The notes below the pieces were generated by a model. It made no database searches. It was not told the DNA's origin and saw only the letters and a program-made list of their open reading frames with translations. A DNA stretch of 42,190 bases from Candidatus Omnitrophota bacterium (GTDB lineage: Bacteria > Omnitrophota > Gorgyraeia > Zapsychrales > Zapsychraceae), in assembly GCA_015233195.1 (NCBI GenBank), contig JADFYE010000017.1, positions 1-42,190 of the forward strand, written 5' to 3'. Positions 30,367 to 32,061 of this stretch are shown piece after piece. A program made the position numbers and the translations under genes. Numbering within the stretch: position 1 is the stretch's first letter; the number at the start of each line of letters is the position of its first letter.

Positions 30367-31392
30367 TTATCTTTTTACAAATTGAGCCAATATTTTATCT
30401 TTATTCCTCTGAAAAGAAACCGTACTTAATATCATCAACAATCCTATTAAAGCTAACGCTATCGGGAAAAACGGCGAATTTTTGAAAATATCATAAGCTA
30501 AATGTGCTAAATAAGCATAAACACCAATAGCCCCAAATATCAACAATGATTTTCTTTGCCACAAAATACTCATAACCACAAATGCTATATGTACTATAAA
30601 AAATAACAAAGCTGTTCCCTCATGCTCCAACCAAGTCATAGCTGTCGCTCCGCTAAAAATCATAACTCCATATAAAAATAGCCACATACTATAATCTTCT
30701 TTTGTACGGCGGTTAAACAATTTTGCCACTCCTATCATAGTAGCGCCGATAAGAATTGATATCCACTTACGCACTTCCATATATGAATTCCAATCCTGGC
30801 TATGAGACAAGAAAAATTCAGCAAGATCCATAGATAAAAACCACGCAGTATGTCCTATAATCAAAGCCAAAAAAGAAAATCTAACCCAATATAAAACCAA
30901 AGCAGCAACCACTAAAGTAGAAAACTCAATATATATCCAACAAGGTTTAATCAGCATCCAATAAGAATGATAGTCTATGTCTGATCCAACTCCTTTTAAA
31001 GGCCAAATGCCAAACATTTTTTCCAAACAATAAATGACCAAAGGCGTAATTGCAACCGCAGCAGAAATCAACAATCCGCCTGAAATCAAATAATTTAATT
31101 TTTTGCGTAAATACATACCAATTCCAAAACATACTGCTTGAAAAGCTAAGCCTAAAAATAAAATCGTCCCAGTAGATAAATAATTCCATTGAGAGGATAA
31201 GAAATATGTGAAAGCAAAAATTATTATCATCGCTCCAAAATAATAAAACGCCATTATAGAATTGAATCCGCGTTTTTGTTCTTCACCATTTATAGATGGC
31301 GTAGCCTGCAGACCAAGAATTTTATTACTTTGCTCACCAGAAATAATACCCTGGCGCACACTTTCGGCAAGGATTTCTTTGAGGTTATCCAT
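30367..31392 (-). CDS. Multi-pass membrane protein, DUF2157-like
   Basis: 341 residues with an N-terminal soluble helical segment of about 45 residues (VRQGIISGEQSNKILGL), then about 10 hydrophobic helices. The N-terminal segment followed by many TM helices is the DUF2157-like arrangement. No transport or catalytic motif is seen. It stands apart, 77 nt from the pilin-like gene and upstream of an intergenic stretch; a GGAG lies just before the ATG. Function unknown. Confidence 0.75.
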   Translation of the reverse strand: MDNLKEILAESVRQGIISGEQSNKILGLQATPSINGEEQKRGFNSIMAFYYFGAMIIIFAFTYFLSSQWNYLSTGTILFLGLAFQAVCFGIGMYLRKKLNYLISGGLLISAAVAITPLVIYCLEKMFGIWPLKGVGSDIDYHSYWMLIKPCWIYIEFSTLVVAALVLYWVRFSFLALIIGHTAWFLSMDLAEFFLSHSQDWNSYMEVRKWISILIGATMIGVAKLFNRRTKEDYSMWLFLYGVMIFSGATAMTWLEHEGTALLFFIVHIAFVVMSILWQRKSLLIFGAIGVYAYLAHLAYDIFKNSPFFPIALALIGLLMILSTVSFQRNKDKILAQFVKR

Positions 31393-31616
31393 AGCTCCTC
31401 CTATTTTTTAATTTAACATTTTATAAAAACGAGAATATTTTATTATATTTGGAGTTTAACGGTTTCGCTAACAAATTTCTTTCTTTACATTAGAATATAA
31501 ATTTGCTATAACTTTCAAAGTTTTATTGGGCCATTAGCCCTTCGGCATCGCTCAGGACTTCCTAAGTCTTGAACACTGACCGAAAGAAATAAACCATTTA
31601 ATTTGAATAATTATTT
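31393..31616. other. Non-coding stretch upstream of tRNA-Lys
   Basis: No supported gene. It holds the start region of the DUF2157-like gene on the minus strand, AT-rich sequence, and from 31528 to 31586 a tRNA-like start plus a REP-like palindrome described separately. Confidence 0.7.
31528..31586. repeat. REP-like hairpin repeat preceded by a tRNA-Lys 5'-end copy
   Basis: GGGCCATTAGC at 31528-31538 is identical to the first 11 nt of the tRNA-Lys gene 89 bp downstream, then the sequence departs into CCTTCGGCATCGCTCAGGACTT and folds back through AAGTCTTG and CCGAAAG. The CCTTCGGC...CGCTCAGGACT core is the widespread CTGAGCGAAGC-type dispersed repeat. A related copy in inverse orientation lies at 31748-31812. 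Confidence 0.7.
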
Positions 31617-31689
31617 GGGCCATTAGCTCATCCGGTAGAGCATCTGACTCTTAATCAGAGGGTGGCAGGTTCGAGTCCTGCATGGCCCA
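31617..31689 (+). tRNA. tRNA-Lys(CUU)
   Basis: A complete cloverleaf can be drawn: acceptor GGGCCAT (31617-31623) with ATGGCCC (31682-31688), D stem GCTC/GAGC, anticodon stem TCTGA/TCAGA around loop CTCTTAA with anticodon CTT at 31650-31652, a 5-nt variable loop and T arm GCAGG-TTCGAGT-CCTGC. Discriminator base is A31689 and CCA is not encoded. A T-rich run follows at once and may end the transcript. Confidence 0.96.
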
Positions 31690-31747
31690 TTTTTTTATTT
31701 ATCCTAATAAACAATTAATCTCTAAAAAATTCCATTGTACCTGCGAC

Positions 31748-31812
31748 GTCCTGAGTTTTACGAAGGACTAGTCCTGAGCGAAGCCGAAGGCGCAGTCGAA
31801 GGGCATGGCCCA
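31748..31812. repeat. REP-like hairpin repeat ending in a tRNA-Lys 3'-end copy
   Basis: GTCCTGAGTTTTACGAAGGAC / TAGTCCTGAGCGAAGCCGAAGG form the dispersed CTGAGCGAAG repeat, inverse to the copy upstream of the tRNA. It ends with GGGCATGGCCCAT, where GCATGGCCCAT equals the last 10 bases of the tRNA gene plus one flanking base, and the following 13 bases match the tRNA 3' flank at 10 positions. The repeat produces short open frames on both strands that are not genes. Confidence 0.7.
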
Positions 31813-31828
31813 TATTTATATTTGTCGT

Positions 31829-32029
31829 TTAATCTTTCCACACGAACAAAAGTAAGGTTAGAACTGCTCCAACACTGCAGCTTAAAACTAAACCACGAAC
31901 AAAATACGGATAAACCATAAGCACAATTCCAAGCAGCATCGGCTTCCACTCAGCGTTCTTTTTACCATAAATAAACGCACCAAAACCAATAGATCCAAAG
32001 ACCACGCTAGTGATTATTCCTTCAGTCAT
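31829..32029 (-). CDS. Small two-TM membrane protein, 66 residues
   Basis: 66 residues: GIITSVVFGSIGFGAFIYGKK, a short polar loop, then LLGIVLMVYPYFVR and a third hydrophobic stretch GAVLTLLLFV. It resembles a widespread short family often labelled amino acid transport protein, but that label is not supported by experiment that I know of. GGAGG sits 4 nt before the ATG. A region with three palindromes lies directly upstream. Function unknown. Confidence 0.78.
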   Translation of the reverse strand: MTEGIITSVVFGSIGFGAFIYGKKNAEWKPMLLGIVLMVYPYFVRGLVLSCSVGAVLTLLLFVWKD

Positions 32030-32061
32030 GATTCCTCCAAAAACATGAAAACAGCGTCGAT

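Follow-up and report, generated by a model that had tools for sequence, protein, structure and literature searches.

Large elements driven by integrases classically land in tRNA genes. REP/BIME elements with RAYT transposases are short palindromic repeats located mostly between genes. The repeats downstream of E. coli tyrT, associated with rtT RNA, form tandem units 3′ of the tRNA, each ending in the 3′ end of the tRNA; to our knowledge, hairpins and a linkage to GIY-YIG genes are no part of the tyrT repeats. T-even phages have a free-standing homing endonuclease of the GIY-YIG type, SegB, the gene of which lies among tRNA genes (PMC13096335; PMC2988022). SegB is reported to cut inside tRNA genes (motif RAWTSGAAC, 23 of 83 sites) and to promote tandem amplification of a tRNA segment (PMC13096335). 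The reverse complement of the motif, GTTCSAWTY, reads as the T loop of a tRNA.

The locus considered here belongs to a 42,190-nt stretch of a contig of Candidatus Omnitrophota (the whole stretch is referred to as the window), the sole tRNA of which is tRNA-Lys(CTT). The intact gene occupies positions 31617–31689 of the + strand (Rfam RF00005, 70 bits; ARAGORN places it at 31616–31690). On its 5′ side, a copy of its own 5′ end is fused to a hairpin and, on its 3′ side, an inverted copy of the hairpin is fused to a copy of its own 3′ end. The 5′ scrap, TGGGCCATTAGC at 31527–31538 (+ strand), matches nt 1–11 of the tRNA and the T preceding them and is broken in the D arm. It is followed directly by the left hairpin, which begins with CCTTCGGCATCGCTCAGGACT (31539–31584, + strand; fold of 31525–31600, z = −4.15). 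The right hairpin region (31739–31802, + strand), detected as an inverted copy of the left one, contains AGTCCTGAGCGAAGCCGAAGG at 31770–31790 and, by itself, folds no better than shuffled sequences (31735–31815, z = −0.64). The arms at 31539–31559 and 31770–31790 are mutually inverted copies (21 nt, 95%). The 3′ scrap, GCATGGCCCAT at 31803–31813 (+ strand), matches the last 10 nt of the tRNA with one additional base, T; the break is at the border of the acceptor and T stems (10–11 nt), outside the T loop. These coordinates confirm the original prediction of a tRNA-Lys framed by inverted repeats that end in copies of its own acceptor ends. The window contains four copies of ATGGCCCA, every one at the tRNA-Lys locus (the mean for shuffled sequences is 0.95, and four copies were reached in 2 of 100 shuffles). 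The two copies of GCATGGCCCA in the 2.0-Mb assembly are both located at this locus. When the repeats were collected throughout the genome, as had been proposed, no copies ending in ATGGCCCA without a tRNA were found in this 77.6% complete assembly.

The spacers between the intact tRNA and the scraps (78 and 113 bp) are too short for an integrase gene, and no GIY-YIG gene was found among ORFs of at least 80 aa near 31500–31850. A cmscan search of 31300–32050 with E values up to 1 yielded only tRNA and Plastid-ycf2, with no rtT or other known RNA family. Among the 20 phage-record matches listed of 270, the locus query is covered essentially in its tRNA part only. In the predicted RNA fold of a 301-nt stretch (z = −5.7), the two scraps pair with each other, as do the two hairpin arms, enclosing the tRNA; this fold may be a mere consequence of the arrangement, because two inverted hairpins of one palindrome pair by construction. 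A weak promoter-like TTTACA-17-TATAAC (31484–31512, + strand), found with a custom script and absent from the consensus-tool listing, precedes the 5′-scrap GGGCC by 15 nt and the intact tRNA by 104 nt. The leaders of relatives range from 16 to >150 nt and, together with the consensus scan, this led to the promoter position being dropped as a guide to which of the copies came first.

The hairpin is rare in the genome. CTTCGRCNNCGCTCA, allowing one mismatch, is present at six sites, of which two are at the window locus and one at the 5′ scrap of tRNA-Pro. The other three, assigned by eye, are an intergenic copy (contig C47), a copy inside a Fic-like gene and an apparent chance match in coding sequence. 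The window hairpin is not a high-copy REP. The original prediction had related REP-like hairpins to tRNA genes; the relation is real and recurrent, and the REP attribution fails on copy number. The REP-associated Y1 transposase, also proposed as a search target, has three matches in the genome and is unlinked to such loci, with a tRNA at 1 of 30 Y1 loci used as a control versus 41 of 110 GIY-YIG sites. As a separate observation, in the lone case of a Y1 gene close to a tRNA (L129, G035:C8, another genome), the neighbour is a tRNA-Lys(CTT), 166 bp upstream of the Y1 gene. A classical REP/RAYT system was rejected on the rarity of the repeat, with two of its six sites apparently coding, and on the Y1 control.

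Some hairpins are located away from tRNAs. The Fic-like gene (assigned by eye; L280, G000:C22:131136–131150) holds a hairpin of the same type, TGGTTCGACTTCGCTCACCACAAGTGATTCGAAGG; Rickettsia palindromic elements likewise reside within genes. A second hairpin family, of the AACTTACGTTCACTTTGTTCCGTAAATT type, adjoins a free CTTCGGCTTCGCTCA hairpin (L278, G000:C47 near 20226); by eye, hairpins of this type resemble those at the tRNA-Pro scraps of genome G020 (L278, L109). The hairpins seem to nest within one another.

The window genome has 31 tRNA matches, of which 30 were examined for fragments of their own sequence within 400 bp. Such fragments were found at five (5′ fragments at 3/30 and 3′ fragments at 3/30): Pro-TGG and Leu-CAG have a 5′ scrap upstream, Gln-CTG and Ser-TGA have a 3′ scrap downstream, and Lys-CTT has both. 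In the control with other isotypes, pairings gave 1/822 5′ and 0/822 3′ fragments. By eye, tRNA-Gln(CTG) is preceded by a lipoprotein-like small ORF both in this genome and in G034 (L085, L106); one of these loci has a split T arm with an insert of about 125 nt downstream, and the other has a GIY-YIG gene.

A search with the window locus gave matches in 54 of 55 genomes, including the window genome. The best 30 loci, one per genome and with the window among them, all contain tRNA-Lys(CTT); a 3′ scrap is present at seven and a 5′ scrap at two, the window being counted in both. In G001, of the same genus, there are two tandem units of about 118 bp, each ending in GGGCATGGCCCATTTTTA. In G009, the T arm is split as GGCAGGTTC, hairpins and ACTCCTGCATGGCCCA, and the tRNA-Lys of G017 is framed on both sides in a window-like manner. 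In G022, an ORF of about 90 aa lies between the tRNA and a hairpin with a 3′ scrap, and this ORF encodes a GIY-YIG domain protein (PF01541, 68 bits). The order at L066 and L108 is tRNA-Lys, GIY-YIG gene, hairpin, 3′ scrap; no NCBIfam family was found for the L108 protein. By motif search, a transketolase-like gene follows tRNA-Lys in 13 of the 30 loci and at L103; the contents of this orthologous site vary. Eleven relatives have no 3′ scrap and no room for a nuclease gene, and some of these ‘empty’ sites contain palindromes, as judged by eye. Two loci (L041 and L065) contain hairpins and a 3′ scrap, with one mismatch in the L065 scrap, and one (L103, genome G007) has a GIY-YIG gene directly 3′ of the tRNA and no scrap. 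At L041, the far scrap and the transketolase gene are about as far apart as the tRNA and this gene are in the shorter of the empty sites, which suggests insertion, with a putative order of steps.

Matches to PF01541 were found in 49 of 51 genomes, large ORFs included. A tRNA lies within 600 bp of 41 of 110 GIY-YIG sites (40 of 109 without L236, which was picked knowingly), and 69 sites have none. The nearest tRNA is located 3′ of the GIY-YIG gene in 23 cases and 5′ in 18, and 12 isotypes are represented. The association is strand-specific: each of the 54 tRNAs found within 600 bp shares the strand of the GIY-YIG gene. GIY-YIG genes are present in relatives outside introns, adjoining their presumed tRNA targets. 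Of these 54 tRNAs, 18 have a 5′ fragment and 11 have a 3′ fragment, against 2/540 and 3/540 in the other-isotype control; many have no detectable fragment. Two forms recur. In one, a 5′ part is followed by a hairpin, the GIY-YIG gene and the intact tRNA (Pro at L097 and L109, Asp at L111, Glu at L167 and L187). In the other, the intact tRNA is followed by the GIY-YIG gene, a hairpin and a 3′ part (Lys at L108, Leu at L122, Val at L158). Second tRNA copies with D-loop hairpins are also present: a tRNA-Gly at L122, missing just its first two bases, and a tRNA-Arg at L217, the 5′ part of which has diverged. Some GIY-YIG reading frames (L227, L172) extend into the downstream tRNA gene; their predicted C-termini are, therefore, translated tRNA (e.g., GEVAEWLKA from tRNA-Ser). 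No other known RNAs reached the gathering score at the 20 tRNA-less GIY-YIG loci searched of the 69. The window genome has two PF01541 matches; one of them, L099 (G000:C33:32178–32393), lies in a 3.2-kb locus with no tRNA and is placed in a mostly tRNA-less clade of the GIY-YIG tree.

Fragments in relatives are broken in the D, anticodon or T arm and often adjoin hairpins. Among 30 distinct 5′ fragments, the breaks are at nt 11–21 (23 fragments) and nt 29–41 (7). Among 26 distinct 3′ fragments, the starts are 15–23 nt from the tRNA end in 19, corresponding to the T loop and T stem, 10–11 nt in four, including that of the window, and 53–62 nt in three; some fragments include CCA. Fragments shorter than about 10 nt are undetectable in this set, and chance may account for a few of the shortest. 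The starting point of most 3′ scraps is within or adjacent to the T-loop motif GTTCSAWTY. A hairpin with perfect 7-bp arms starts no more than 2 nt from the break in 10/30 5′ and 8/26 3′ fragments, as compared with 81 and 85 of 2980 random places, a roughly tenfold excess. A perfect hairpin immediately at the break is missing from about two thirds of the fragments, and both window junctions fail this strict test (perfect 7-bp arms, no more than 2 nt). Among 209 tRNAs, 5′ fragments are present at 53 and 3′ fragments at 37; framing on both sides is mildly commoner than independence predicts (16 versus 9.4).

In a tree of 109 GIY-YIG proteins, which has few columns and many weak forks, labels combining isotype and side cluster (31 changes versus a shuffled mean of 40.7, with 0 of 200 shuffles as low). 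A subfamily linked to tRNA-Ser is represented in genomes of named species by 39 loci, six of which are seeds. A tRNA lies within 600 bp at 31 of the 39 loci (26 of 33 non-seeds), always on the same strand, and a tRNA-Ser is nearby at 27 (22 of 33 non-seeds). Twelve loci are from beyond Omnitrophota, Omnitrophica and Zapsychrus, namely from Nitrospira/Nitrospirae, Deltaproteobacteria/Desulfobacteraceae, Planctomycetes, Kiritimatiellae, Bacteroidetes and one uncultured organism; all 12 have a tRNA and nine have tRNA-Ser. At L260, from Kiritimatiellae, an 11-nt 5′ scrap leads into CCTTCGACTGTACTCAGG, a sequence similar to the window junction. Relatives of the Leu-GAG clade were matched in 123 of 285 genomes, and a tRNA is present at 20 of the 30 best loci. 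The expectation that this clade would be located at tRNA-Leu in other genomes too failed, with tRNA-Leu nearest in only two of these 30 loci, both seeds, and many other isotypes instead. Since the Leu-GAG relatives adjoin many isotypes, strict isotype specificity of every GIY-YIG clade was rejected. A further GIY-YIG group has a tRNA at 17 of 22 loci. In this group and in the Leu-GAG relatives, the nearest tRNA is always on the same strand.

The window locus probably goes back to GIY-YIG elements that home into tRNA genes, interrupting the gene and restoring the lost part, and would be a remnant or a non-autonomous form of them. The scraps would then represent both ends of tRNA-Lys copies that were interrupted. 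Small mobile elements with junction hairpins may insert into the D, anticodon or T arm of tRNA genes and, in many relatives, appear to encode a free-standing GIY-YIG nuclease of about 75–100 aa, which is the likely mobiliser. The putative nuclease would cut the arms of the tRNA gene, as is suggested by the SegB motif reading as the T loop, where most 3′ scraps start. It would spread through double-strand-break repair (homing): repair from a copy bearing the element would install the element with the missing tRNA part, so that one intact tRNA stays and the broken 5′ or 3′ fragment is left across the hairpin. The window locus would record two events, one interrupting the tRNA 5′ in the D arm and the other 3′ near the T stem, in a short form that has no nuclease gene and is either non-autonomous or decayed; its hairpins may have been moved by such a nuclease acting in trans. 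The missing GIY-YIG gene at the window locus, the tRNA-less 3.2 kb around L099 and the position of the window 3′ break outside the T loop count against the nuclease reading. So do the 69 GIY-YIG sites of 110 that lack a tRNA nearby, the failed expectation for the Leu-GAG clade, the many tRNAs beside GIY-YIG genes in which no fragment is detectable, the lack of a perfect break hairpin in most fragments, the only mild excess of framing on both sides and the palindromes at some empty sites. The original prediction offered two interpretations. Replacement of the bodies of former tandem tRNA copies by hairpins is partly supported by the second copies with hairpins in or instead of their bodies (tRNA-Gly at L122, tRNA-Arg at L217). 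As for an element that targets or mimics the acceptor stem, targeting of tRNA genes is favoured, and mimicry is disfavoured because most breaks are in the D, anticodon and T arms, though the window 3′ break is at the acceptor/T-stem border.

Partial copies would also be produced if tRNA genes were duplicated in tandem in the ordinary way and the copies then decayed, with replication slipping at palindromes; hairpins would accumulate in unconstrained pseudo-tRNAs, and GIY-YIG genes would independently favour tRNA neighbourhoods as safe sites. The tandem units of G001 ending in GGGCATGGCCCATTTTTA fit this explanation, as do the near-complete second copies with D-loop hairpins at L122 and L217, the majority of fragments with no perfect hairpin at the break and the reported SegB-dependent tandem amplification of a tRNA segment (PMC13096335). 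However, the breaks are clustered rather than spread, with 5′ breaks at nt 11–21 and 29–41 only and 19/26 3′ starts 15–23 nt from the end (fragments shorter than about 10 nt being invisible), break hairpins are about ten times more frequent than at random places, and the GIY-YIG linkage is strictly same-strand; duplication is judged unlikely.

Attachment-site remnants of tRNA-integrating phages or ICEs with a tyrosine integrase, the body of which has been deleted, are a very improbable source. Such integration is reported to leave partial tRNA copies (PMC9897764). Against this source, the inserts examined range in length from tens of bp to a few hundred, related hairpins are seen repeatedly, 3′ fragments are no commoner than 5′ fragments (37 versus 53 among 209 tRNAs) and any gene between the copies, in the loci inspected, is a GIY-YIG gene. 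It is similarly improbable that the scraps are parts of a functional RNA, a longer transcript pairing scraps and hairpins around the tRNA and guiding its processing or expression. The fold of the 301-nt stretch would agree with this; against it, inverted copies of one palindrome pair in any case, and most tRNA-Lys relatives are scrapless (a 5′ scrap in 2/30 and a 3′ scrap in 7/30, the window included). Chance, or a classical REP/RAYT array adjoining the tRNA, is the least probable explanation; it has the three Y1 matches in the genome in its favour and is disfavoured by the other-isotype controls, the rarity of the repeat and the near absence of tRNAs from Y1 loci (1/30).

If the homing interpretation is correct, a tiny nuclease-only element appears to use chromosomal tRNA genes of many isotypes and in several phyla while sparing the tRNA. 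Phage-style free-standing homing would then extend to chromosomal tRNA genes and suggest an origin for annotation-confounding hairpin repeats and tRNA fragments. A broader generalisation is held more tentatively, at somewhat less than even odds: these loci may belong to a class of mobile elements, widespread in bacterial chromosomes and apparently undescribed, which home into tRNA-gene loops via a GIY-YIG nuclease of about 90 aa, rebuild the tRNA from their own copy and leave nested scraps, REP-like palindromes at the tRNAs of candidate phyla being their ends and non-autonomous form. Among the open-access titles and abstract openings listed, none described chromosomal GIY-YIG genes accompanied by tRNA fragments in bacteria, and the novelty of the pattern is provisional.

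With REP/BIME elements and their RAYT transposases, the window hairpins share the form of short palindromic repeats, chiefly intergenic; they differ in number, with no more than six genomic sites, of which three adjoin tRNA scraps, and in that the Y1 transposases are unlinked to tRNAs. The tandem units of G001 are arranged as in the tyrT/rtT repeats, whereas the window region has no Rfam rtT match. The attR-type fragments left by integrating elements likewise comprise an intact tRNA and a partial copy (PMC9897764); here, the inserts are tens to hundreds of bp long, 5′ as well as 3′ fragments are present, the breaks are often next to palindromes and many loci contain a GIY-YIG gene. SegB is similar in being encoded by a small free-standing GIY-YIG gene among tRNA genes and in the T-loop reading of its reported cut motif. 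Unlike SegB, the genes considered here belong to bacterial chromosomes of several phyla and adjoin many tRNA isotypes, with junction hairpins and tRNA fragments beside an intact copy, and cutting by their nucleases is putative.
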